Origin: Capnocytophaga sp. oral taxon 863 str. F0517
GTDB taxonomy: Bacteria; Bacteroidota; Bacteroidia; Flavobacteriales; Flavobacteriaceae
Direction: 5' to 3'
NCBI RefSeq assembly: GCF_000466425.1
Contig: NZ_KE992184.1
Span: 1-38,405 of the forward strand
DNA: 38,405 nt
Shown: positions 275 to 16,053 of the stretch, piece after piece
Layout of the letters: each line of letters starts with the position of its first letter
How positions within the stretch are numbered: the first letter of the stretch is position 1
Program-made: the position numbers and the translations under genes
Notes under the pieces: generated by a model
Database searches by the model: none
The model's input: the letters and a program-made list of their open reading frames with translations, nothing else
Told to the model about the DNA's origin: nothing

Positions 275-3214
275 ATGAAGTACTTATTCTCTATATACTT
301 GCTTTTTTATACCTCTCTTGTCCTTTCCCAACCATTGTGGGAGCATAGAGCCTTGCAGTATAACCAATATAGTATCGGTAGGGACTTCTTCAATATCAAC
401 CAGCCCTTACAGGTAAGCTCCGAAGGCGAATTACTCTTCTCTCCTGAGGAAAATGTCCTCTATGCGCTTCATAATACCGAAGTGGAAGAGTATTTCAAAG
501 GGGAGGAAGTGGGGGTTTTCCTTAAGAAATTCAAGATACAAGACCAACTCTTCTTCGGATTTAGCGAAAGTATCTACACCGGTAGTAGCTACGAGAAGCT
601 CCACCCCCAGAAAGTAGGCTATGTAGGGGCGCGTTACTCTCATTTTATACAAATCGACAAGCTCATTTACTTCACTGCCATTGCTCCTTCAGAGACAGCC
701 TATAAGCTCATGAGCTATGATGGGCGTTATTTCCAGGAATTGGAGGAACATAACTCCTTCGTCTATGCCCTTCCTATCAAGAGTGTCCCTTATCGCTGCC
801 TGCTGGGGGAGGATACCACCGATATCAAGTGCCTTGCCGCGGGGGGGGAGGCGCAGCTATTTCCTTGGGCTTTTATACCGCTCTACATGCGCTCCATAGG
901 GGATTTCTACTTTATCAGACCTGAAAATAACGGCTTGTTTCACTATGCGCGCACCCTTACCACTAAGGTGCTTCCGGCCAATAAAAATGAAAACAAGAAC
1001 TTTGGCCGCTATTACCTCTACAACGATGGGAATGAGCTGATATTGTACGACTTGGAAAAAAACTTGGAGCCAATAGCGGTGACCACGACCATCCGCTCGG
1101 CTTATTATAAGGCTTTTTCCGAGGACTCCCAAAGCCTCTATTTGGGAAGTAGCAACCAGCTTACCCGACTATTTACTTACCTGAAGACTTACCCGCGCCT
1201 TTACAACGATACCAATACCGATCGCCTCTTTGCCTTGGCTTTGACTCCTTCCGGGAAGTTATGGGCAGGAAGTTACAACGGAGGCTTCTCTGTTATTGAC
1301 GGAACGCAACTCTTCAAAAGTCCTCTCAAGAGCCTCCAAATGGACTACGGTGCCCTTCCTATAGGGGAAAAAGTACTCTTTAATACCTCTCATAAGGGCT
1401 TGTTCTTATTTCATTCGCCTACCGAGTATACTCAGGTGAACGATACCATCATCTCTCAGTTTAGCTTCCTCTCTTCCGACAAGATGGTCTACACCGCCAT
1501 TCAGGAATATGGACTGGCGGCCAAGAGCCTCGAACAGCTCGAACAAAAACACTTCCCTTGGAGACAAATCACTAAGAAACAAGGACTTACCCTGAACCAC
1601 TGTCAGGCTATAGCCGAAGATAGCAAAGGGTATATATGGACGATCTCCATGCAGGGAATAGCGCGCTACAACCCCAAAACAGATAAGGCACAGACCCTCT
1701 TGTTCGACAAGAAACAATCCCCCCTACGCGGCTACGCCTTACTCAGTGACTCCTATGGCACCCTTTGGCTCGGTGGGGAAAAGGGACAACTCTATTACCA
1801 CCAACCCACCGATAATCCACAGCTGGGAGCCAAAGACTTCCAACTGCTCCAGCATCCTTTGCTCCTGGGCAACGACCGTCCTATTGTCTTTCTACACCAG
1901 TGGCAGGATTACCTTATAGTAGGAATAACCAACAAACTGCTGGTAGTCTCCCTAAGCCAATTCAAAAAAGGAAAGGCCAATGTGCGCTACCTCAATCCCT
2001 ATGCTATGAACCTGCAAGACCCCTTGGAACGTACCTGTGTGGCCAGCAATCCCAAGGATGACCACCTTTGGTTTGCCTCTTCCAATATGCTCTTTCAGTG
2101 GAATATCGCCCAATGGCTCGCCCTGCCTTCCTATAAGGCCGAACCTACCCTGAGTATCAATACCGGTAAAAATAGCTATAAAACAAGGGTAAATGATCCG
2201 ATTTCCTTAGAGGTCAATGAGAACTCTTTTGAAATCAAAATCCATTACCAGACCCGGGACAACCTCCCCCGATACGTAATCCCTGCCCTCTATAGGGAAC
2301 ACCAGCAGGAGGCCATCGAGCAGGGAAGCCTTACTACCGATACCGATTATCGCTACCAAAACCTCTCTGCCGGGGATTATGTCTTCTCCCTGACCGTCTG
2401 CCAAAATGATGGCTCTTATACCATCTTTCAGTATCCTATCCATATCAAAAAATCTATTTGGCAGAATACTTACTTTTGGCTGGTGATGATCCTCATCCCG
2501 GCCTCTACCGGCTTCTACTTGCTCTATAATATGAGGCGTATGGATAAGCAGGATAGGGAAATCGCCTTGCTCACTATAGGAAACCTCGGCAAGCAATTCC
2601 GCCCACACTTTATGCTCAATGCGCTCAATAGCCTCGGGGCGGAGCTCTATGACAACCCTCATGCCGAGCGTATTATCTCTCATATAGGGGAAAATATCTC
2701 TATCATGCACCGCTATTCTCAGGATCAGACACCTTTTATTCCCTTCAGTCAGGAGTGGAAACTCACCGAGAATACCATCGCCATACAGCGGGAGATATTC
2801 CTGCCCGACTTACAGGTACAGATCGAAAATATCGAGGCCATCCCTCCCGATTATCGCATGCCTATGGGTATCATGCAGGTCATTGTCGAGAATTCCCTCC
2901 TCCATGGCCTCCGCCATAGGGATACCCCTCCGCAGCTGCTGCGCATCGCCTTTTGGGAGCGAGCCGATATCTATGGAATCAGTATCTCCGACAATGGGGT
3001 AGGGGTGGCCGCTTCCAAAAAATATGCCGGCGTACAGCGACATGGCACCGGACTGAAGAATATCCAGCGTATCCTTAAAATACTTGACAAGCATTTTGAT
3101 GATGCGATCACCATCTCTATGAGCGAAAAGGATAAAAATGACCCTAAATATCCCGGAACTATTACTATTATACAACTCAAAAAATCAATTAATTATGAAA
3201 AAATCAACCTTTAA
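275..3214 (+). CDS. LytS-type sensor histidine kinase with periplasmic propeller-like sensor
   Basis: This 979-aa protein begins with a signal peptide (residues 1 to about 18). About 700 residues of beta-propeller-like, presumably periplasmic sensor follow, with Reg_prop-like motifs such as TPSGKLWAGSYNG and DSYGTLWLGG, then a Y_Y_Y-like beta domain (about 640-720) and one membrane helix (about 725-750). The cytoplasmic part is a His_kinase (LytS/YehU) domain: phosphoacceptor His778 in QFRPHFMLNAL, N-box Asn873 in VENSLLHGL, and G-boxes DNGVG (906-910) and HGTGL (923-927). The response regulator gene overlaps its 3' end by 20 bp, so the two form a classic pair. The signal sensed cannot be read from the sequence; this architecture in Bacteroidetes often senses envelope or nutrient cues. 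The catalytic residues all look intact. Confidence 0.9.
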   Translation: MKYLFSIYLLFYTSLVLSQPLWEHRALQYNQYSIGRDFFNINQPLQVSSEGELLFSPEENVLYALHNTEVEEYFKGEEVGVFLKKFKIQDQLFFGFSESIYTGSSYEKLHPQKVGYVGARYSHFIQIDKLIYFTAIAPSETAYKLMSYDGRYFQELEEHNSFVYALPIKSVPYRCLLGEDTTDIKCLAAGGEAQLFPWAFIPLYMRSIGDFYFIRPENNGLFHYARTLTTKVLPANKNENKNFGRYYLYNDGNELILYDLEKNLEPIAVTTTIRSAYYKAFSEDSQSLYLGSSNQLTRLFTYLKTYPRLYNDTNTDRLFALALTPSGKLWAGSYNGGFSVIDGTQLFKSPLKSLQMDYGALPIGEKVLFNTSHKGLFLFHSPTEYTQVNDTIISQFSFLSSDKMVYTAIQEYGLAAKSLEQLEQKHFPWRQITKKQGLTLNHCQAIAEDSKGYIWTISMQGIARYNPKTDKAQTLLFDKKQSPLRGYALLSDSYGTLWLGGEKGQLYYHQPTDNPQLGAKDFQLLQHPLLLGNDRPIVFLHQWQDYLIVGITNKLLVVSLSQFKKGKANVRYLNPYAMNLQDPLERTCVASNPKDDHLWFASSNMLFQWNIAQWLALPSYKAEPTLSINTGKNSYKTRVNDPISLEVNENSFEIKIHYQTRDNLPRYVIPALYREHQQEAIEQGSLTTDTDYRYQNLSAGDYVFSLTVCQNDGSYTIFQYPIHIKKSIWQNTYFWLVMILIPASTGFYLLYNMRRMDKQDREIALLTIGNLGKQFRPHFMLNALNSLGAELYDNPHAERIISHIGENISIMHRYSQDQTPFIPFSQEWKLTENTIAIQREIFLPDLQVQIENIEAIPPDYRMPMGIMQVIVENSLLHGLRHRDTPPQLLRIAFWERADIYGISISDNGVGVAASKKYAGVQRHGTGLKNIQRILKILDKHFDDAITISMSEKDKNDPKYPGTITIIQLKKSINYEKINL

Positions 3215-3938
3215 GTATCTTGTCATTGAGGATGATAAGAGTATATGGAAGAATATCTCCGCTCGTATGCAGAAATTTATCCAGTGGAAACCGATCCCTT
3301 TCACCGATAGCCTTCAGGAGGCTATCTCCCTGATTGATGCCCACCACCCCGACCTGATCTTCTCCGACTGGAGTATCCGAGGGGGCAACGCCTATCCTAT
3401 CTTATCACATATACACCAAACCAACGGATATACACCCTATATCATATTCTTTACAGGCTACCAAGGGGAAAACCCTGAAATCCCCCAGATTGTGTTCAAT
3501 GAGTTTCCCTTAGTGAAAAAATACCTCGTAAAGCCTATATTTCAGCAACTGACCGAGAACCTCTCCCAGTATATCTTGGAGGCAGAGGCGCTCTCCGAAG
3601 GCGAGGACGAAACGCCTGTTTTTATCGAAAACTATCTCAAACAGCAGGTGCGCATCTTCCCCAAGCAGATCCTTTGCTTCCTTCAGGACGAAGAAAACCC
3701 CCGTCTGAAAGTACTACATGCCCTTTCAGGACAAAATATCCACCTGAAACAAACCTGGGAAGAAATCCACCGCTTCTGCGCCCAGCACCAGCTCTCTATC
3801 TTCGTAGCCAATACCCGAAAGGCCATCGTTAACCGAGAATATATCGTCCGAATGAACCGTCCTTTCCTTTGGCTCGAGGGGGGACTCCGTATCCAAGTAT
3901 CCCGCGAACAGTGGCCTTTGCTCACCCAAGAAGCCTAA
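3195..3938 (+). CDS. LytTR-family response regulator
   Basis: Start chosen at 3195 (MKKSTFKYLVIEDD), 20 bp inside the end of the kinase gene; an upstream in-frame start at 3138 would add 19 residues coded by the kinase C-terminus and is unlikely. The 247-aa protein has a receiver domain with the acidic pair in VIEDD, phosphoacceptor Asp58 (IFSDWS) and conserved Lys113 (LVKPI). A LytTR DNA-binding domain occupies about residues 135-245 (FCAQHQLSIFVANTRKAIVN region). It is the predicted partner of the kinase upstream. The pair is probably transcribed as one unit, but no target operator was recognised. Confidence 0.9.
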   Translation: MKKSTFKYLVIEDDKSIWKNISARMQKFIQWKPIPFTDSLQEAISLIDAHHPDLIFSDWSIRGGNAYPILSHIHQTNGYTPYIIFFTGYQGENPEIPQIVFNEFPLVKKYLVKPIFQQLTENLSQYILEAEALSEGEDETPVFIENYLKQQVRIFPKQILCFLQDEENPRLKVLHALSGQNIHLKQTWEEIHRFCAQHQLSIFVANTRKAIVNREYIVRMNRPFLWLEGGLRIQVSREQWPLLTQEA

Positions 3939-4005
3939 AAAAGCCCCCCTTTTTACCTTTCATGTACAAATACGAACACTTCATGCGCGATTTCGCACTT
4001 TTCTC

Positions 4006-4035
4006 TTGACATCTGCAAAAAAACTACTACCTTTG
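4006..4035 (+). promoter_or_regulatory. Bacteroidetes-type promoter facing a gene-free region
   Basis: TTGAC at 4006-4010 and TACCTTTG at 4028-4035 are separated by 19 bp between TTG and the -7 element. This is one of the best promoter matches in the window, yet no plausible ORF follows on the plus strand for about 2.7 kb. Transcription would start near 4042, immediately before a hairpin-rich stretch, suggesting a non-coding RNA. Confidence 0.6.
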
Positions 4036-4041
4036 CAACGT

Positions 4042-4333
4042 CAAACAGAGGGAACGACTTCTGATACAGTAATTAACAGAAGCCCCTCGCAGTCCTAAAG
4101 AATAGATTTTTTTGCGTTTTTTATTTTAGACAGTAAGGAATAAAGCACCTTACAAAAAACTAAACCCAAAACTATACTTGTAGCAAGGTGCTTAGTTCTT
4201 TACTGAACAACAGGACAATTGAAAAGAAAGTTTTCATCTCTTTATATAGTAATTAGATTTTTTGTGTTTTTATTTTAGATTAGAGTAAGGAGATAAGTCT
4301 CCCTAAAAGAGGCTTATCTCTCTCCTCTCTAAT
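4042..4333 (+). ncRNA. Putative structured non-coding RNA region with two paralogous hairpin units
   Basis: After the promoter at 4006-4035 come three hairpins. The first pairs GAGGG/CCCTC and CTTCTG/CAGAAG (about 4048-4089). Unit 1 has a T-rich tract (4103-4130) followed by a 20-bp helix (4131-4151 with 4185-4205, one A-A mismatch, 33-nt loop). Unit 2 has a near-identical T-rich tract (4254-4279) followed by a helix of 7 bp (4279-4285 with 4327-4333) and 13 bp (4289-4301 with 4309-4321). The 5' arms share an AGTAAGGA-ATAAG motif but otherwise differ, while pairing is kept. Neither hairpin is followed by a T-run, so they do not look like terminators. Known candidates (6S-Flavo, tmRNA, SRP RNA) were considered; none could be matched by eye. 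Confidence 0.4.
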
Positions 4334-4661
4334 TTAAGAAGAAGTGATGAGACAATTTAATATTCGGCAATTCTTAAATAAACCAATACCAGTAGAATGA
4401 ATTAGTGATCATTACCTTTTATTTATAGTCTTTTGAAATGTGATGTCCGCCTAAGCAAGGATTTTCGTGAAACAGACAACTATTTTTTATCCCTAAACTT
4501 TCATAAGACAACTAAACAAACATTATATCATATATCATTGCATAGCTAAAGGTTATAAGTAAAAGGTAAGTAATTCACTAAAGAAGTAAGTATTTTAAAA
4601 TTAAGTGCATTTTTTCATACAAGAAAGGGGAAAGGGCTGTTTCGTGGTAAGCAGTCTTTTC
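4334..4661. other. Gene-free spacer downstream of dut
   Basis: AT-rich sequence between the hairpin units and the 3' end of dut. No ORF with a recognisable product, no clear promoter, and no strong palindrome was seen. The plus-strand open frame that begins here runs antisense through dut and is discounted. Confidence 0.6.
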
Positions 4662-5096
4662 TTATTTTTTTCCAGTACTGCCATAGCCGCCTGCCCCTCG
4701 TGCAGTCTGGCTGAGTTCCTCTACAAGAACAAATTCGGCTACTTCATGCCGAGCTATTACCATTTGGGCGATACGCTCCCCATTGGCTACTTCAAATGCT
4801 TCATCTGACAGATTGATTAGCAATACCGATATTTCACCTCTGTAATCGGCATCGATAGTCCCTGGAGTATTCAGCACCGTGATCCCATGCTTGAGTGCTA
4901 AGCCACTGCGCGGACGTACCTGCGCCTCGTACCCCAAGGGTAGCTCTATATATAGGCCAGTAGGAATGAGCTTGCGCTCCATAGGCCTAAGAATAACAGT
5001 CTGCTCAAGGTGCGCCCTTAGGTCTACACCTGCGGACCCTTCAGTCTGATACGCCGGCAACGCATGTCCCGAACGATTGATGATTTTTATTTCCAT
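4662..5096 (-). CDS. dut: Deoxyuridine 5'-triphosphate nucleotidohydrolase (dUTPase)
   Basis: Hydrolyses dUTP to dUMP and diphosphate, keeping uracil out of DNA and feeding dTMP synthesis; active as a cytosolic trimer. The 144-aa length is typical. Family motifs are all present in order: AGVDLRA (about 22-28), [13 protein letters not shown] (about 62-74), [14 protein letters not shown] (about 76-89), GERIAQMVI and the C-terminal GGYGSTG. It lies 26 bp downstream of the flippase gene on the same strand and is probably cotranscribed from the promoter at 6581-6613. The spacer between them holds heptamer repeats (TTAGTCG, TTAGTGA). Confidence 0.97.
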
Positions 5097-5122
5097 ACTT
5101 TATAGTTGTTAGTCGTTAGTGA

Positions 5123-6559
5123 TTACCTTCCACGTTTTACCTTTAGCACAGCTACAATGGCATAGGAGAGAAAGAACCCACTTCCTACCCATATATTCCT
5201 ATCCAATACATAGAAATATAGCAGCGAGAGCCCTGTGGAAAGCCCCAAAAATCCTCCAATAGCCTCCCACCGATAGGGGATAGGGTATTTGTGCTGACCG
5301 ATCCACCATGAGAGTCCCATCATCCCTCCATAGGCCAAAAAGGTCGCAACAGCAGCACCCATATACCCCCACAAGGGAATAAGGCTGAGGTTGGCCACTA
5401 CGGTAATCACCCCACCTACCACCGAGATAAGGGCGCCCCAATGGGTGCGATCACTTACCTTATACCATACCGACATGCTGTGGTATAACCCCAAGCAGAG
5501 ATTGGCCATCAGTACAAAAGGTACAATCTTTAGCCCTTCCCAATAGGCCTTATTAGGAATGAGCAACCACTTGAGCTGGTCGATATACACACAGACAAAT
5601 AGCAGGATACCACCGGCAAAGATGCTGAAATATTCCGTGACCTTCGCATAGGTCTCTGGGGCTTTCTTGTCCCCAGAACTGGAGAAAAAGAAGGGCTCCA
5701 CCCCCAGCTTGTAAGCGGTGATAAATAGGGTCATGAACACGCCCATCTTATAGCAACCCGCATACAGCCCCACCACCGCATCGGCTTCCCCTGCTGGGTA
5801 GAGCATACGGATAAAAACCCGGTCAAAGGCCTCATTCACCGAAAAAGCCACCCCTGCGATCAGAATAGGAAAGGCATAGCGAAGCATCGTCCTCCATAGC
5901 TTCGGATCCCACCGAAGGCCTATCCGCTTGTATAGGGGCAACATATACACGAAGGTCAGTAGGCTGGCGATGAGGTTGGCCATGAAGATATATTGGGTCT
6001 TGTCTTCTATAAAAGTGAAGGTAGGTAGCTCATAGCCTGAGCGTTCCAGATAAGGAAAGTAAAGCAGAAAAAGCAAGTTCAGCCCTAAGTTAATACTCAC
6101 ATTCCCTATTTTGATCAGCGAATAGTGTAGTGAGTGCCCTGCATTCCGCTGCCAGGCAAAGGGAATGGCCACCAGTGTATCCAATACCAAAATCCAAACG
6201 GCATAGCGAATATAGATCGCGGGGTACCCCAGCCAATAGCCGATATAGGTGCTGCCAAGTAGGCCAATGACCAAAAAGGCAAGCGAACTCACCGCCAGTG
6301 AGCGAAGGCTCGTCGAGGCAACCCTCGAGGGATCTTTCTCCTTATTCATAAAGCGGAAAAAGGCCGTCTCCATCCCATAGGTCAGCAGCACATTGCCCAA
6401 GATCATATAGGCAAAAAGCCCCTGATAGAGCCCGTATTGTGCCTGAGTAAGCGTCTGCGCACTGGTGTGCAAGGGGGTTAGCACCAAGTTCAGCACCCGT
6501 GGCATTACCGTAGCCAACCCATAGATGGCCGTATGCTTAAATAATTGCTTTATACTCAA
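5123..6559 (-). CDS. Polysaccharide/lipid flippase of the MOP superfamily (Wzx/MurJ-like)
   Basis: A 478-aa integral membrane protein with about 12-14 hydrophobic segments and a short polar C-terminus (KVKRGR). The N-terminus (FKHTAIYGLATVMPRVLNL) is typical of the polysaccharide biosynthesis protein / oligosaccharide flippase family, which moves undecaprenyl-linked glycans across the inner membrane. The substrate cannot be told from the sequence. The ORF begins with TTG at 6559, 16 nt below the predicted transcription start; the next ATG, 18 codons in, would cut into the first helix, so TTG is preferred. No capsule or O-antigen cluster surrounds it, and dut follows. Confidence 0.85.
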   Translation of the reverse strand: MSIKQLFKHTAIYGLATVMPRVLNLVLTPLHTSAQTLTQAQYGLYQGLFAYMILGNVLLTYGMETAFFRFMNKEKDPSRVASTSLRSLAVSSLAFLVIGLLGSTYIGYWLGYPAIYIRYAVWILVLDTLVAIPFAWQRNAGHSLHYSLIKIGNVSINLGLNLLFLLYFPYLERSGYELPTFTFIEDKTQYIFMANLIASLLTFVYMLPLYKRIGLRWDPKLWRTMLRYAFPILIAGVAFSVNEAFDRVFIRMLYPAGEADAVVGLYAGCYKMGVFMTLFITAYKLGVEPFFFSSSGDKKAPETYAKVTEYFSIFAGGILLFVCVYIDQLKWLLIPNKAYWEGLKIVPFVLMANLCLGLYHSMSVWYKVSDRTHWGALISVVGGVITVVANLSLIPLWGYMGAAVATFLAYGGMMGLSWWIGQHKYPIPYRWEAIGGFLGLSTGLSLLYFYVLDRNIWVGSGFFLSYAIVAVLKVKRGR

Positions 6560-9190: not shown

Positions 9191-9255
9191 GATAAGTAAA
9201 TATTTAAAAGAACCCATGGGCACCAACCCATAAAGTTATTACATTTATGATGTCA

Positions 9256-9286
9256 CAAAAATACGATTTTTTTCGCTAAAAACCAA
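9256..9286 (-). promoter_or_regulatory. Promoter for fda
   Basis: On the minus strand TTG (complement of 9284-9286), 20 bp, then TATTTTTG (complement of 9256-9263). The transcript would start near 9249, giving a leader of about 60 nt. Confidence 0.7.
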
Positions 9287-9350
9287 AGAATTTTTCACTT
9301 TTCACCCACATACCCAGCTCCAAGTATTCGCGGGCTTTACTCTTCACTTT

Positions 9351-10913
9351 TCACTCTTCATTTTTCACTGTATTGCATACGTCCTTCTCTTCGCTGACAA
9401 GCGAGAGCTTCTTATCTGTATATTTATAGCAGTACTTCCGATTTTTGTCCTTGAAGTAGTAATAGGTAGGAGCTGCTTTGTAGGAGAGGTATAGGTTCAT
9501 ATCCATAGTATTGCCAATATAGCTAAGGCTTTGGTAGTCCGTGAGGTTCCTGATACAATGCCGACCTAAGATAAGCCAATCCTGAGTAACATATCCTACC
9601 CCTATATCCCTCACAGGGGAGCTAAGGGGTAGCTCGCGAGTGACTTTAATAGGGCAAAAAGGGTGGTTTTTGAACCCTTTTATGTCTTCTATCCACCGAA
9701 GGTAATAGAAAACCATTTTACCATCTATAAGAACAAACTCTTCGCCCGGATGAGTGGTGTTATACCTTTCACTCTCTGAGAGTATCTTTTCCTGTAACGG
9801 ACTGATTTCCATAGGAAAAAACCGATTCTCATAGACTACATAATAGGCAAGACCATCGTAATAAAAGAGATATTTGGACAAGAAGGAGTCTTTAGGCATC
9901 TCAATAATACGCAATTGCTGAGGATTCTTTACGGTTGAGAGGTCTATCGGACGATTATAACCATCAAGGTCTCGGTGGTAATAATGGGAATAGTCTCTGT
10001 AGTACTTCCCGTCCTTTTGGAGCAAATCCAGCGACACCTCGTAGGTTATATCTTCTCTGGGAATGATAGCAAAGCCTTCACAGAACCACAAGCGCCCCTC
10101 ATGGAAATCCCAAAAAGCGCCTTTATTGTGTGTCTTCTGTCCATAACGAACAAGCGTTCCTTCGGTGAATTTTCGGGTGAATCCTTCGCTAGTAAATTTC
10201 TCTGTATAATCATTTAACCGAGGAAAGTCATACTTAGTTATATAGAAAGTATCCTCATCATATAGATAATCACATAGGTAACCATAAGAGCCATAACCGC
10301 CCTCTACCCAACATACCTTTTGAGCATCCAATCCCTCTACAACCTCAATACTTCTCTCCATATAGCTCTCTTCTCGGTACATATATACCTTATGGGTGTC
10401 CTTTAGGAGTGTTTTTGTCTCAGAGGTATGTAGGACAACCACATCTTGGGTAGGAAAGTCGGTGAGGACTTCTTTAGTAATCTCAATAGGATCTTCGTAT
10501 GATGAGCGCTTAGCATAGTCAAGATAATACCAAGTTCCTTGGGTGAAATAGATGTGTCCTCTCGCGATTACCTCACTCACTTCTTGGGTGGGAAATAGCG
10601 GGATTACTTTCGCTTCCTCACTATGGTATCCCCAGATGTAGTAGTGATAATCCTCATTGGCAACTATAAGCCAATCTCCATCATAGTTAATCATTTGTAC
10701 CCCACTAGGACTGATAGGTACCAATGTCTTAGTACAAGATAAAGAGGTAACCCCATCACCTATGGTATATTGAGTAATCAGATATACCTTTTCTCCCTCC
10801 ACCTCCACCGAGGCTTCCCAAAAGAGCGGAGGACTTTCTCCCCCTACCTCCACAAGGGGCTTTCCATATACCCATCCAATGGTGAGGAAGCTAAGAAAAT
10901 AAAAGAATTTCAT
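9351..10913 (-). CDS. Secreted tyrosine-rich protein of unknown function, DKNYY-like
   Basis: A 520-aa protein with an N-terminal signal peptide (residues 1-17, ending VYG) and no later membrane segment, so periplasmic or outer-membrane associated. It is rich in Tyr, Trp and Asp/Glu, with short recurring beta-type motifs (HIYFTQGTWYYLDYA, KYYRDYSHYYHRDLDG, YYYFKDKNRKYCYKY). These resemble the DKNYY family of Bacteroidetes and Fusobacteria, whose function is unknown; the assignment is tentative. The next gene, another envelope protein, lies 39 bp upstream on the same strand and the two may be cotranscribed. Heptamer repeats of the TTTTCAC type overlap the 3' end. Confidence 0.7.
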   Translation of the reverse strand: MKFFYFLSFLTIGWVYGKPLVEVGGESPPLFWEASVEVEGEKVYLITQYTIGDGVTSLSCTKTLVPISPSGVQMINYDGDWLIVANEDYHYYIWGYHSEEAKVIPLFPTQEVSEVIARGHIYFTQGTWYYLDYAKRSSYEDPIEITKEVLTDFPTQDVVVLHTSETKTLLKDTHKVYMYREESYMERSIEVVEGLDAQKVCWVEGGYGSYGYLCDYLYDEDTFYITKYDFPRLNDYTEKFTSEGFTRKFTEGTLVRYGQKTHNKGAFWDFHEGRLWFCEGFAIIPREDITYEVSLDLLQKDGKYYRDYSHYYHRDLDGYNRPIDLSTVKNPQQLRIIEMPKDSFLSKYLFYYDGLAYYVVYENRFFPMEISPLQEKILSESERYNTTHPGEEFVLIDGKMVFYYLRWIEDIKGFKNHPFCPIKVTRELPLSSPVRDIGVGYVTQDWLILGRHCIRNLTDYQSLSYIGNTMDMNLYLSYKAAPTYYYFKDKNRKYCYKYTDKKLSLVSEEKDVCNTVKNEE

Positions 10914-10952
10914 ATCAATGATTAATATACCGGCAGGGGATTTGTAATATAG

Positions 10953-11477
10953 TTACAGACTTCTTTGTAGGCCTGATTCTTCCCACTTAAATAGCGTGGT
11001 TTTATGAAATAGGGTCGTATCAATACTTTGAAAATGAAAGCATTTTGATGCTGAATTTTCTGACTTTATGGTATAAATGTACTCGTCATAGGTGCTAAAA
11101 ATCTCATCTTTATGCTGTGCAAAATCGTCTTCTTCGAAATCATTATTCCAACAACAACTTGTACTCACTATCAATTCAACTTTTTGAAGCAGACTATCCT
11201 TAAATAGAAATCTTTTTTGAGATAATATTTTTATAAAACCTTCTTTTTCTTCAATCTTAGTGATATAAAGACTATCATTATTGGGAAAAATTTCTAAATC
11301 TTTGTAAGCATTGAATCCTTTTTGAATATCTTTAATCGTAGATGCACCTAATACAAACGATTTTTCATGGATAAATCCCTTACATAAGCCTTTATGATGC
11401 ATTCTTATACATGATAAAAATGTAAATGGAATCAATATACATATAGCTATAATTATTTTTCTATTTGAAATCTCCAT
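10953..11477 (-). CDS. Putative lipoprotein, unknown function
   Basis: A 174-aa ORF starting at an ATG. The N-terminus is basic and hydrophobic (IIIAICILIPFTFLSC) with a plausible lipobox ending in Cys23, so the product is probably a lipoprotein. The mature part contains a CCW motif and is Asp/Glu/Phe-rich; no family was recognised. The base composition is visibly more AT-rich than the gene downstream and resembles the STAND NTPase gene upstream, so it may belong to the same acquired segment. Confidence 0.6.
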   Translation of the reverse strand: MEISNRKIIIAICILIPFTFLSCIRMHHKGLCKGFIHEKSFVLGASTIKDIQKGFNAYKDLEIFPNNDSLYITKIEEKEGFIKILSQKRFLFKDSLLQKVELIVSTSCCWNNDFEEDDFAQHKDEIFSTYDEYIYTIKSENSASKCFHFQSIDTTLFHKTTLFKWEESGLQRSL

Positions 11478-11538
11478 TATATGTTTTTTTGGGTAGCACC
11501 CTCCGCCAGCGCAAACTTTTCACGCTTCACTATTATAT

Positions 11539-11606
11539 CTTGTAGCTCCCATAAAGAGCCAAAGGCTCTACTAATAGTAGGCACGAGCTGCAAGAAATGC
11601 GCCAGC
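11539..11606 (-). repeat. Left copy of an inverted dispersed repeat flanking the STAND gene
   Basis: Read on the minus strand this 68-bp segment matches 15594-15662 with about five mismatches and one 1-bp gap. It contains an internal palindrome (AGAGCC-AAA-GGCTCT) and the core CTTGCAGCTCGTGCC (complement of 11580-11594), which also occurs twice inside the terminase gene at 37787 and 37850. On the plus strand a T-run (11615-11620) follows. Confidence 0.85.
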
Positions 11607-11703
11607 AAGGGGCCTTTTTTCTCAAACACAAAATTACTAATTTTCGGAATTTTTACTTTATTATAGGAAAAAGTTTAAAACTCCATTGCTAATATGATTG
11701 TTC

Positions 11704-14700
11704 TCAATCATTTCCAATAAATTTTCTCTTTCTCTCCCAATCTGCATATTTTAATCCATTTTGAATTTGTGTATTAAGATATCTTTTTATTGGTATTAAT
11801 TTTATTCCTAAATCTGATTTTTTCACAATAGAAAGTATATTTAGCCAATCAGAAGCTCTTAAATAGCCAAAATTAACATCTCCAACAACTGTTCTGCCAT
11901 TTCCTCTCCAATATATTTTAGAAAACAAATCAACATCTTGTGTTAAGGATATAAACAATAATAACACATCTTCAAATATTTCCTTCATTGAGTGTCTTGC
12001 TATATCCACAATAAAATTCATTTTGTTGTGGCTTTCATAATTTTCTTTACAATAATCTAATAGGAAGCTTTTAGCTCGTATGCTCGCTTCTTGTGACAAA
12101 TCCCCAAAGAAAGAATTACAAAAATGTTCTCCAATTCCTAAATAGACTTCTTTTTTATCAATCAAATCAAAAACAGTTTTCAGTATAGGTTCAATTTTAT
12201 TAGATTCCCAAATCACGTTCAAAAATATATCTTCATGCAAATAATGTTGATTTTGGTTTTTTGAATATAAATTATTAATATACTCTATAAGAAAGTTTTC
12301 ATCTCGCTGAATAATCTTTGCAAAGCCTCTTCGAGTTAAGTCAAAATGACTGTCTATTAAATCTTGTTGCAAGTATAGTTTCTTTATCAAATTAATGTCA
12401 TTCCCTAATTCCTCAAAGGAGTCTTCTGTGATATCAAATTGCACAAAAATCGTTTCGTCTTTTTTTTCGTTTTTGTCAATAATAATTTGGAGTAATTCTT
12501 GGAACAAATTTGGTGCAATATTCAAATATCGCTTTAATCCTTCAAGCCATATGGAAGCTCTATTCGGTAATTTTTTTACAGTCTCTTTAATTTTCTCAAT
12601 ATGCTTCTCATTGATTAGATTCTCTGCCAAATAATCATAAAAAGACAACTCCCAAAAATATTTATTGTTAAAATTATTTTTCTGTAAAATATTCCAAATA
12701 TATTGTGATTTTTCTTTTGTTGTTAGCTGATTTCTGAAGACTGTTCTTGGGGTATAACCAATTTGATTGTTTGTAATTATTACTTCGGTTAAAAACTGAC
12801 AACCTAACTCGAAATTTTTAGAACAATTTTCATCAACTATTAAATCAAACGAGTTATTATAGCTCCAATAATTTTTTGCAATGCTTTTTAAGTAAACAAA
12901 AGTGTCATAAAATGATTTAACGTCTTTAATATTGTTGCAAACAAAAGATTTCCTTATTTCTTCTTCTTTCAGTTTTTCGTATTCTTCATGATTCTCAAAA
13001 TCATAGCTTTCTTTGTATCTAAATCTATCCCAATCTAAAATGAGATACTTCTCATAAGTTGTGTTTGTGAATTTTTGAGATAAAGAAGGAAATTCAGGAA
13101 GTTCTATTTCGTTTCTTTTACACCTTCTAATCTGTTCTTGAACGTAAAGACAATGTTCAAATGAGTTGGGGTTTAAATGATTTTTGATAATGGATATTAA
13201 GAATTGAATGTCATATTCCATTATCTCTTTTATTACACCTGGACTAACATTTGCATAACTCTGTAATAATTCGAGGGATTTCTCAGGATAAAGACTAAAG
13301 TAGTTGTTTACATTATCCCAAATGTTTTTTCGAAATGCTCTAATAGATTGATTATTGGGAATAGGATATTGATAAATAGATATTGCATAGTGCCTTTCAC
13401 TTTTTGTTTGTTGGTATTTAAAAGCAAGAAATGTTTTTGACAATTCATAGAATGCTTTTGAATACAAAATATCTTTTTTTGCTAATCCTTCAATTAAAAT
13501 TTGAAAAAGTATGTTTTGCCTTTCAAAACCAAAGCGTTCATCAGTCCAGTCAAATATCAGGATTTCTCTGATTTTGTGTATTAGTTCGGGTAAGTGTTCT
13601 GGTTTCTTTCTGATAAACTCAAAAATTAATTCAATCGCATCTTTGAGTTTGTTTTGAAAACGGAAAAAATTACTAAGTAGTTCAATAACTTCATTTCGGC
13701 TATAAGCAAAATCATTTGTTTCATATTTAACTTCGTAATTAACATTATGAGGTAAAGGTAGTTGATTTATTCTATTGTAAATATACTGCAATGTTTCTTC
13801 TTGCAGATAGAACCAAAATATTTCCAAGAATGCAAACGTTCTTTCTTCTTCGTTTTCAATTGATTTTAAATAGTTTTGAAGAATAGGTTGAAGCTTCTGC
13901 ATCACATTTTCAAAACCAAAAGTATTGTTTGCAGGAATAACACAATCTTTAAACCGACTTTTATTTTCATTGAAATACCTCTTTAAAAGTGTTTCAAATT
14001 CGAGCAAATTATCCTTAATAAACGCTTTATAGAAAAAGAAAGTTGCTAAATTTTGTTCGGGAATTTTTACATAATCATATTGTATTTCCACTAACTCCAA
14101 TCTATCTAATTTTTCTATTGCATCAATGAATAATGGATAGTCAATACCAAAATTTTGTAAAATAGGTTCGGTTATGTTTTTGTCTTTATAGGGTATAGCA
14201 TTGAAAAAAGCAATTATTCCCAAGCATTTGATATTGAATTGATTGGAAAATTCTCCATCATCATTTATAAATGTTGAGAAATATTTCTCAAACAAATCCG
14301 ATACATCTGCTAAAGCATAAATATTTTGCTTTTGTTTTGCAAGTAACGCCGTCATAATTGCAAGCCGAGGATTACCGTCTGCAATACGAACAATTTCTTT
14401 ATGAAATTGCCAATTTGAAATATTAAAAGGTTCTGCCTTAATAATATCAGTAATTTGTTCATCAGAGAACTTTTTTAAAACATATTGCTTGTGTTCAAAT
14501 CCAAAGCAAAATTTTTCAACTATTGGCAAAGCATAATCTCTTGCAGTAAGAATAATTTTCAAATTACCTGTTCTTTGCGACTTGTAAAAGCCTGTAATTT
14601 GACTGAAAATGTCTATTCTATTGGCATCATCAACGAAAAAGATATAGTCTTTTTTATCATCAAAATGGTGAGATAAATCACTTAACAAGTTACAATTTTT

Positions 14701-15432
14701 ATATGAAAGGCAAAATGCATTGTATGATAAATTTTCTGCCAAAAAACTATTAATTGCTTCTATTGCGATTTTTGTTTTCCCAACGCCTGCAACACCAGTG
14801 ATTATTAAGAAATCGTTTCGCTTAATAATTTGTTTGATGTTTTCTAATTCCTCCTCTCTGTGCAGAAAAGTATTATTCAAAGGTGTCGCAATACCCTTAG
14901 ACGCTTTATTGTATTCCTCAACAAAGGTGTTAATAGAAACAATTTGTCCTGTATCCAAGGGGAACCCCAAATATTTGTGAACTAAATTTCTATGTTGAAA
15001 ATGTAATTCTAATGACAGACAATCGAGTGTATAAATGGTTAATATGAGTTCTGCTTTACCTAGAAGATTCTTCAAAGATTGAAATTCTTCTGTATTTAAG
15101 TTGAAATTTATACAAAGTATTATTTCTGCAATTTGATTTATCGGAATTTTTGTCTTTGTCGTGTCAAGACATTTTTCTATATCTTCTTGCAGTTTTGATA
15201 CTCCTTTTGTAATGTTGGTTGAGTATTCTACAAATACATATTTACCACTAGGCAATAAGTAAAAAGTGTCAGGTGTTCCCTTTGTTGTTTTTTGTTTTCC
15301 ACTTTGACTTCCAACTCTCGAAAAAGTTCGGTAATTATCGTTTTTAAGAATTAAAAAGCTATCACATAATTCCTGAAAAACAGTTTCATTTATACTTGAA
15401 AGAGCATTTTCTATGGTTTGTAATCTACTCAT
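11704..15432 (-). CDS. STAND NTPase with N-terminal PD-(D/E)xK-like domain; candidate anti-phage protein
   Basis: A 1242-aa protein in three parts. Residues 1 to about 165 look like a restriction-endonuclease fold: a KGTPDTFYL strand with Asp55, then YVFVEYS with Glu69; the usual ExK lysine is replaced (E-Y-S), with nearby lysines as possible substitutes. Residues about 185-480 are a STAND P-loop NTPase: Walker A GVAGVGKT (213-220), Walker B FFVDDAN (265-271), ILTARDY (294-300) and GNPRLA (353-358), equivalent to the GxP motif. The rest is long, helix-rich and TPR-like, a typical STAND sensor region. The layout resembles Avs-type antiviral STANDs, where target binding by the C-terminus triggers oligomerisation and nuclease action. 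No partner gene adjoins it. It is far more AT-rich than its neighbours and flanked by inverted repeats, suggesting transfer. Defence function is inference. Confidence 0.8.
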   Translation of the reverse strand: MSRLQTIENALSSINETVFQELCDSFLILKNDNYRTFSRVGSQSGKQKTTKGTPDTFYLLPSGKYVFVEYSTNITKGVSKLQEDIEKCLDTTKTKIPINQIAEIILCINFNLNTEEFQSLKNLLGKAELILTIYTLDCLSLELHFQHRNLVHKYLGFPLDTGQIVSINTFVEEYNKASKGIATPLNNTFLHREEELENIKQIIKRNDFLIITGVAGVGKTKIAIEAINSFLAENLSYNAFCLSYKNCNLLSDLSHHFDDKKDYIFFVDDANRIDIFSQITGFYKSQRTGNLKIILTARDYALPIVEKFCFGFEHKQYVLKKFSDEQITDIIKAEPFNISNWQFHKEIVRIADGNPRLAIMTALLAKQKQNIYALADVSDLFEKYFSTFINDDGEFSNQFNIKCLGIIAFFNAIPYKDKNITEPILQNFGIDYPLFIDAIEKLDRLELVEIQYDYVKIPEQNLATFFFYKAFIKDNLLEFETLLKRYFNENKSRFKDCVIPANNTFGFENVMQKLQPILQNYLKSIENEEERTFAFLEIFWFYLQEETLQYIYNRINQLPLPHNVNYEVKYETNDFAYSRNEVIELLSNFFRFQNKLKDAIELIFEFIRKKPEHLPELIHKIREILIFDWTDERFGFERQNILFQILIEGLAKKDILYSKAFYELSKTFLAFKYQQTKSERHYAISIYQYPIPNNQSIRAFRKNIWDNVNNYFSLYPEKSLELLQSYANVSPGVIKEIMEYDIQFLISIIKNHLNPNSFEHCLYVQEQIRRCKRNEIELPEFPSLSQKFTNTTYEKYLILDWDRFRYKESYDFENHEEYEKLKEEEIRKSFVCNNIKDVKSFYDTFVYLKSIAKNYWSYNNSFDLIVDENCSKNFELGCQFLTEVIITNNQIGYTPRTVFRNQLTTKEKSQYIWNILQKNNFNNKYFWELSFYDYLAENLINEKHIEKIKETVKKLPNRASIWLEGLKRYLNIAPNLFQELLQIIIDKNEKKDETIFVQFDITEDSFEELGNDINLIKKLYLQQDLIDSHFDLTRRGFAKIIQRDENFLIEYINNLYSKNQNQHYLHEDIFLNVIWESNKIEPILKTVFDLIDKKEVYLGIGEHFCNSFFGDLSQEASIRAKSFLLDYCKENYESHNKMNFIVDIARHSMKEIFEDVLLLFISLTQDVDLFSKIYWRGNGRTVVGDVNFGYLRASDWLNILSIVKKSDLGIKLIPIKRYLNTQIQNGLKYADWERKRKFIGND

Positions 15433-15593
15433 TTTCTTTTATTTAATTTTATGCAGTTGTGCCCGAGCATTGTCTACAACGCTATAATATGCACAATCTT
15501 ATTATGATTAGCCAAGTTGGTATATATTCCACAATGAAATTACATTTGCAAATTTTTAAAATGATCTTTTGCTTTTAAATTTTTAGTTTCCCC

Positions 15594-15702
15594 GCTGGCG
15601 CGTTTCTTGCAGTCTGTGCCTACTATTAAGTAGAGCCTTTGGCTCTTTATGGGAGCTATAAGTTCCATAGTTGTAGGTATGAGCCGTAAGAAACGCACCA
15701 GC
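15594..15702 (+). repeat. Right copy of the dispersed repeat, a near-palindrome
   Basis: GCTGGCGCGTTTCTTGC (15594-15610) pairs with GTAAGAAACGCACCAGC (15686-15702) with two mismatches, so the element can form a hairpin of about 109 bp. An inner palindrome AGAGCC-TTT-GGCTCT lies at its centre-left. Its left part is the inverted partner of 11539-11606. It lies 15 bp beyond the end of the fabB remnant and about 160 bp upstream of the STAND gene. Confidence 0.85.
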
Positions 15703-15716
15703 AAGGAGGCATGGCA

Positions 15717-16053
15717 TTAATCATTAATGGCATTAACCATTATAATGGCTGAATTTGTTCTGCCAAAGCCAAAGGAATTAGACAGAAAAGTGCGTATGGA
15801 CTTTGGGTGGTTTGGGTGATGATATGGAGCTTTTGGGAGTTTTCATCAAGGGCTTCTATATTGATGTTCGGGGCGATAAAGTCGTGTTGCATCATCAGGA
15901 TAGAATACACTAGTCACTAGTTCACTGGCACCCGCCATTCAGCATTCATGCCCTGTAATGGACTTGTAGCGCTTACGCAGGTATGACTGCCTCCAAAGAG
16001 GTGCCTATACAGGGATATATCCCCATACCAGCAACCACAACACGATGACTCAT
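15717..16053 (-). pseudogene. fabB: Remnant of a FabB-type beta-ketoacyl-ACP synthase gene with large internal deletion
   Basis: Translating the minus strand from ATG at 16053 gives MSHRVVVAGMGIYPCIGTSL, the N-terminus of FabB-type synthases, then a stop at about 15975. From 15907 down, another frame gives LMMQHDFIAPNINIEALDE and KLHIITQTTQ, the conserved C-terminal region; after a 1-nt frameshift near 15802 the next frame gives TFLSNSFGFGRTNSAIIMV, the FabB C-terminal signature (normally SNSFGFGGTN), ending at a TAA at 15717-15719. So only about 30 N-terminal and 65 C-terminal residues of a roughly 415-aa protein remain, with frameshifts and a GG-to-GR change. Heptamer repeats lie at the deletion junction (about 15911-15925). 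The product would be non-functional. Confidence 0.88.

Follow-up and report, generated by a model that had tools for sequence, protein, structure and literature searches.

What does a lone, AT-rich gene for a STAND protein of 1242 amino acids (aa) do in Capnocytophaga sp. oral taxon 863 str. F0517? The gene lies in the window analyzed here, the first 38,405 nucleotides of contig NZ_KE992184.1, and the original prediction, made from the letters of this DNA, took it for an Avs-like anti-phage gene with a nuclease-like N-terminal segment. We consider it reasonably probable that the gene encodes a one-protein immune receptor of the Avs/NLR type, which would carry a PD-(D/E)XK-like effector and defend by abortive infection. 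It fits no named defense family that we found and is most likely an Avs-like receptor of an undescribed family.

The mechanism we propose has three steps. A C-terminal α-solenoid would hold the receptor off until a protein of an invader, most likely a phage, is bound. Once this happens, the nSTAND3 module would be able to exchange ATP or bind it, and to assemble into oligomers through its nucleotide-binding, helical, and winged-helix domains (NBD-HD-WHD). The oligomer would gather the N-terminal PD-(D/E)XK-like domains, and DNA would then be cut, leading to cell death or a halt of phage replication.

The proposed receptor and known STAND systems

The open reading frame (ORF) starts with ATG and has no interruption. 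Its guanine-cytosine (GC) content is 0.286, against 0.441 in the remaining window, which agrees with the AT bias first reported for it. Comparison with a copy in Bacteroides gave a dN/dS (ratio of nonsynonymous to synonymous substitution rates) of 0.08-0.19, and this shows that the gene is under purifying selection and has been kept functional. The parts of the protein are as follows.

11704..15432, minus strand: single-gene STAND receptor, 1242 aa (ORF, nSTAND3 match at E 8.2e-9, relatives)
14938..15432, minus strand: N-terminal domain (N-domain), residues 1-165, putative nuclease-like effector with no Pfam family above cut-off (conservation in 17 sequences, predicted secondary structure)
15268..15270, minus strand: D55 of G-T-P-D (17 of 17)
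15226..15228, minus strand: E69 of E-x-S/T (17 of 17)
15193..15195, minus strand: K80, candidate relocated lysine in predicted helix 77-88 (17 of 17)
14023..14937, minus strand: nSTAND3 NTPase with helical and winged-helix parts, residues 166-470 (Pfam, fold match)
14773..14796, minus strand: Walker A, G213-VAGVGKT220, residues 213-220 (motif, conservation)
14626..14646, minus strand: Walker B, FFVDD (D268, D269), residues 263-269 (motif, conservation)
14539..14547, minus strand: T296-A-R298 sensor motif, LTARD (motif, conservation)
14359..14376, minus strand: GNPRLA, residues 353-358 (motif, conservation)
11707..14022, minus strand: C-terminal α-solenoid, residues 471-1242, presumed sensor (AlphaFold, helical-repeat matches, conservation)

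The Pfam scan placed nSTAND3 (PF20720) at residues 194-302 with 35.8 bits, over a cut-off of 27.2, and found no second family above cut-off; among the relatives, L042 scored 36.6 bits and L037 25.6 bits, just under the cut-off. The motif set of the original prediction, which had given no strand, is present in full in STAND order and conserved in the relatives: G213, G216, G218, K219, D268, D269, R298, N354, and R356 occur in all 16 aligned members, and the NTPase site is intact. A fold search with the predicted structure of residues 165-480 matched CED-4/apoptosome proteins, plant NLRs, and EfAvs5 (the last over 160-478), which is the NBD-HD-WHD fold of STAND NTPases. APAF-1, CED-4, and the plant NLRs share this arrangement; they differ in being eukaryotic, with other effectors and 13%-18% identity, and we regard the protein as working like them, not as one of them.

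In the PADLOC scan the window protein gave only a P-loop match to mad8 (residues 185-266, E 3.2e-4), which falls short of the whole-protein match expected of a MADS mad8 member. Matches in NCBIfam and PHROGs were weak and mostly at the P-loop, and PDB sequences returned only UvrA P-loops (E 0.08 or worse). Scanned against PADLOC at E 0.01, 15 of the 16 members matched mad8 (best E 1.1e-5) and four matched MkoA, with PD-Lambda-4_A, PDC-S73, and IetA matched once each. The PD-Lambda-4_A likeness consists of that one member (E 1.8e-4) and of a weak match of the PD-Lambda-4_A region to our family profile over 197-391 (E 1.4e-7). In the window protein the PD-Lambda-4_A model finds no match. A large protein beside a Leptospira plasmid copy fits the model at E 2e-273 and has no Pfam match. 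PD-lambda-4, under that spelling, is not mentioned in the excerpt of PMC9519451 that we consulted.

The Avs types were reportedly first classified by Gao et al. in 2022. In PADLOC, which we take to hold AVAST models, neither the window protein at E 1 nor the 16 members at E 0.01 had an AVAST family among their matches, and NCBIfam returned none for the window protein at E 0.1. Given this result for the members, we did not assign the family to Avs1-5. The layout nevertheless is that of Avs, with a presumed N-terminal effector, a STAND module, and a C-terminal helical sensor in one protein. Avs1-Avs4 are STAND proteins with an effector of nuclease type and a large sensor at the C-terminus (in part from the excerpt of PMC12931631), and Avs5, a Sir2-nSTAND3-repeat protein, shares the nSTAND3 NTPase family (same excerpt of PMC12931631). 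Our family resembles Avs5 in its nSTAND3 module, in the order of effector, STAND, and helical C-terminus, and in the fold match to EfAvs5, but its N-domain is nuclease-like and has no match that would place it with Sir2-type NADases. From Avs1-Avs4 it differs in having E-x-S/T and an invariant K80 instead of ExK. The Pfam nSTAND3 model, which the protein does match, spans only the P-loop core.

Could the protein be a divergent member of Avs1-Avs5, overlooked by the model libraries, with a usual nuclease effector and sensing of terminase or portal? The shared layout and NTPase family are what such a member would have. The missing AVAST matches and the absence of a Sir2 match argue against it, and on this comparison with model libraries we think it unlikely.

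Antiviral STAND proteins are a known kind. What seems new is the combination of receptor and effector, the effector being seen only with this receptor among 390 genomes; neither the libraries we scanned nor the listings from our literature searches have a name for it. Those listings held nothing on defense among the matches for Avs6, Avs7, or type VI, and the accessions of three Leptospira homologues gave no literature match. The unassigned class proposed originally stands on the missing AVAST model and on the lack of an N-domain family above cut-off; the missing lysine, on which it had been based, lends it no support as such.

The N-terminal domain

We aligned the N-domains of 17 family sequences, including the window protein. 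P54, D55, E69, K80, and D84 were invariant. P54-D55 and E69 (E-Y-S) are as first described, and F19, G41, G45, K48, G52-T-P-D55, E69-x-S/T, K80, D84, and C88 had at most one exception each. K48 was kept in 16 sequences, and position 71 was S or T in all 17 (E69-Y-S in the window protein). N-domain identity among members drops to 29%-33%, and invariance of D55, E69, K80, and D84 at this level points to an active site more than to a surface for binding.

In an AlphaFold model of residues 1-480 (predicted local distance difference test, pLDDT, 83.7), the N-domain is predicted to contain helix 16-30, strands 56-59 and 65-71, helix 77-88, strand 101-108, helix 114-122, and strand 130-134. The order of these elements, and their order only, fits the α-β-β-β-α-β core of PD-(D/E)XK nucleases, with low model confidence at residues 38-47, the expected place of another core strand. 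D55 and E69 stand beside predicted strands 56-59 and 65-71, the adjacent-strand acidic pair of this nuclease class, and K80 and D84 lie in the predicted helix behind the two catalytic strands. The domain looks like a PD-(D/E)XK variant in which ExS/T replaces ExK, and it probably works like such a nuclease; because ExK is absent, we did not classify it as a canonical one. Judging by conservation, K80 or K48 could stand in for the ExK lysine.

None of the 16 N-domains scanned against Pfam had a family above cut-off. Five had sub-threshold matches to L_protein_N (best E 3.1e-4), which in viruses is a PD-(D/E)XK endonuclease domain. A genome-wide L_protein_N profile search of 13 host genomes gave eight weak matches, none above cut-off. 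Four fell within the final ~110 residues of UvrD-type helicases, the C-terminal end at which nuclease domains of the RecB/AddA type sit, and three of these helicases also matched PDDEXK_1, one of them above its cut-off. Sir2 was not among the nine Pfam families listed for the 16 N-domains at E 10, a list from which very weak matches were mostly filtered.

We also searched 390 Bacteroidota genomes with the N-domain and found six places, in the same six genomes as the whole protein and each within a long frame (640 to 1261 aa) that also encodes the NTPase. Outside this sample, G767 carries the N-domain as its own frame immediately upstream of the one for the NTPase, and G133 seems to have the C-terminal part in a frame of its own. 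Family members at L041 (6277-10069) and L055 (7240-9642) are split over two frames, either as a natural two-gene form or by a frame-shift.

A domain with a PD-(D/E)XK-like fold might instead bind DNA or a partner without cutting, and the protein would then be a defense scaffold or regulator. The E-x-S/T at the place of ExK and the absence of a family match above cut-off speak for this, but the four invariant residues in otherwise divergent sequences point to catalysis, and we regard it as rather improbable.

Distribution, presumed sensor, and neighborhood

A full-length copy (55% identity) was found by the kinship search in 1 of 59 other genomes. None of the 19 other species of the genus carries the gene, so it is not a core gene kept at the same place across the genus, an outcome that the original prediction had regarded as damaging. 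The scan of the genome collection added copies in Bacteroides faecalis (85%) and Paenibacillus psychroresistens (53%), and profile searches found members in 6 of 395 Bacteroidota genomes, 5 of 301 of the Bacteroides family, and 2 of 398 of the Paenibacillus phylum, the own or center genome included in each. Among plasmids there were 14 records, 13 of Leptospira matching over nearly the whole length at about 41% identity and one of Haloarcula matching over the NTPase only; searches with L037 and L041 recovered these 13 Leptospira records again, with 1 and 4 additional records, respectively, that matched mainly over the NTPase. Viral contigs gave one match with the profile and none with the L041 protein, and no family match occurred in 50,697 phage records. 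Some copies are on plasmids or on a prophage-like contig, and others on long contigs or chromosomes. The family is sporadic and horizontally mobile, and it is spread over three phyla, Bacteroidota, Bacillota, and Spirochaetota.

The gene appears to travel alone. DNA identity with B. faecalis is 86% and confined to 11703-15451, and a second pair, L040/L051, has 87% identity, also over the ORF only. Similarity ending at the ORF in two independent pairs indicates a one-gene cassette. A cognate second gene was looked for in the ORF lists by eye; none recurred beside the STAND gene, and a one-gene system was assumed.

The C-terminal 773 residues were modeled as almost all helix (pLDDT 83.5), in line with the roughly 750 helix-rich residues predicted, and matched only generic helical repeats. 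This is the least conserved region of the family. L040 is from the order of the window and L051 from the Bacteroides family; they come from different bacterial families. Their DNA is 90%-99% identical over residues 1 to about 840, then 76%-78%, and from residue about 1045 59%-67%, while dS climbs from 0.1 to 1.8. Because the step is seen at third positions too, it reflects a change of ancestry and not constraint alone; the C-terminal third was probably exchanged, in what looks like a sensor exchange. The pairs window-L003, L005-L006, L039-L038, and window-L052 showed fluctuations and no comparable step. Replacement of the sensor by an unrelated domain had been suspected in outer relatives, since the C-termini of L037, L042, and L054 are only 16%-18% identical. 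Profile comparison rejected it for L037 (E 1.5e-24, 733 columns) and for L054 (E 1.8e-10, 639 columns), both aligning over most of the length, and the solenoid looks like one fast-diverging domain.

The surroundings of 16 members contain 163 neighbor ORFs with 100 aa or more, of which 19 were chosen by eye and scanned, not all of them against both libraries. Five proteins of defense or restriction families were present in 4 of the 16 loci: PD-Lambda-4_A adjoining L006 (Leptospira), two GmrSD_N proteins near L004 (Paenibacillus), a PDDEXK_13/REase-ARP protein directly adjoining L054, and a type I methylase at a distance of about 5 kb from L053. Six scanned neighbors were of mobile-element or related type: L014 has a large terminase and a portal nearby, L039 and L051 have integrases, L003 has DUF5712, and L004 has an HNH/phage-integrase-type protein. 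Plasmid partition genes adjoin L005. Of the original proposal, the Avs-like architecture (STAND fold, solenoid C-terminus) and a defense-type lifestyle (sporadic, mobile, with C-terminal mosaicism and some defense or mobile neighbors) are well supported.

Two homologous proteins of 361 and 370 aa (31% identity, E 4e-53) without a known family were seen at L006 (18888-19973) and L037 (10039-11151), one near the Leptospira plasmid PD-Lambda-4_A gene and the other divergent from a family member; they are possibly a defense partner. At L042, a 1418-aa protein (2299-6555) directly downstream of the member has no Pfam or PADLOC match at E 0.001.

The copies on plasmids and in the prophage-like contig would also suit a role in guarding mobile elements against each other, in which the protein serves plasmid or prophage exclusion and not the protection of the host from lytic phages. 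Other copies are on long contigs or chromosomes, the design would be identical either way, and we find this role quite improbable. Transcription regulators do occur among STAND proteins, but a regulator or housekeeping protein with no role against phages is very improbable given the patchy distribution, the single-gene transfers, the plasmid, prophage-like, and defense-type surroundings, and the absence of a helix-turn-helix DNA-binding family among the Pfam matches of the window protein.

Several observations weigh against an immune receptor with a nuclease effector. All 17 aligned members lack the ExK lysine, and the N-domain has no sequence match to any solved structure in the PDB. We take L_protein_N as a pointer and not as proof, because its search listed a family member in just 1 of the 13 genomes (E 0.038), other proteins outscoring that member, and gave weak matches in 2 of 14 control genomes. 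In the fold search, archaeal ATPases, ORC2, clamp loaders, and ClpA reached scores close to those of the immune receptors; matches to clamp loaders and ClpA mostly covered about 190-210 residues. The mosaic evidence comes from a single pair, the neighbor scan had no enrichment control and 8 of its 19 hand-picked ORFs matched nothing, and the match is fragmented in 3 of the 13 Leptospira records, with an IS3-like transposase between the pieces in two. The other two ORFs of the insert described below show no defense family beyond a weak MTase_III match.

A more specific version of the immune-receptor reading, which we hold tentatively and at slightly less than even weight, is that of a new antiviral STAND type. 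Its PD-(D/E)XK-derived effector, so far seen only with this nSTAND3 receptor, would have a moved catalytic lysine and be spread, as a single-gene cassette in Bacteroidota, Bacillota, and Spirochaetota whose phage specificity is changed by recombination of solenoid alleles between bacterial families. If true, bacterial NLR-like immune proteins would gain a receptor family with its own effector, and one more single-gene defense cassette would be known to move between bacteria of different orders. Many STAND defense proteins are known; this family is compact, spans three phyla, and offers a clean sensor-swap test. L040 and L051 are a natural experiment, with almost identical first 840 residues; since they differ mainly C-terminally, swapping that part should swap phage range and would locate where the target is read.

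The insertion site

In the sister species G003, a 2-hydroxyacid dehydrogenase, a 406-aa synthase, and fructose-bisphosphate aldolase are contiguous. In the window, ~6.5 kb separate the aldolase from the remnant of the synthase, which from its sequence we presume to be FabF-like; this DNA contains ORFs of 174 and 520 aa in addition to the STAND gene. In G012, another sister, other window genes (MATE-like, dUTPase) come after the synthase, which is intact there and in G003.

9227..15737, no strand: AT-rich insertion between the FabF-like remnant and fructose-bisphosphate aldolase, approximate limits (comparison with G003)
15738..16053, minus strand: decayed FabF/β-ketoacyl-synthase-like remnant at the insertion edge (tblastn, pieces broken by stops)
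11536..11610, plus strand: left copy of a ~70-bp dispersed repeat (repeat search)
15594..15662, minus strand: right, inverted copy of the ~70-bp repeat (91% identical)

The ~70-bp repeat occurs at eight places in the genome, and an inverted pair flanks the STAND gene. We rejected these repeats as transposon ends, since several of the eight are unpaired and no transposase was recognized beside the STAND gene. The repeat may mark sites at which foreign AT-rich DNA is taken up. On contig C35, a pair in direct orientation (L056, 4153-4225 and 9937-9996) brackets seven AT-rich ORFs (GC 0.20-0.36).

Of the other two ORFs in the insertion, the 520-aa one (9351-10913) has a signal-like N-terminus, as read by eye, and no match in Pfam, PADLOC, NCBIfam, or PHROGs. 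The 174-aa ORF (10953-11477) has no Pfam family above cut-off and matches PADLOC MTase_III weakly (E 6.9e-4); relatives with 85%-87% DNA identity are found elsewhere in 4 of 19 sister genomes.

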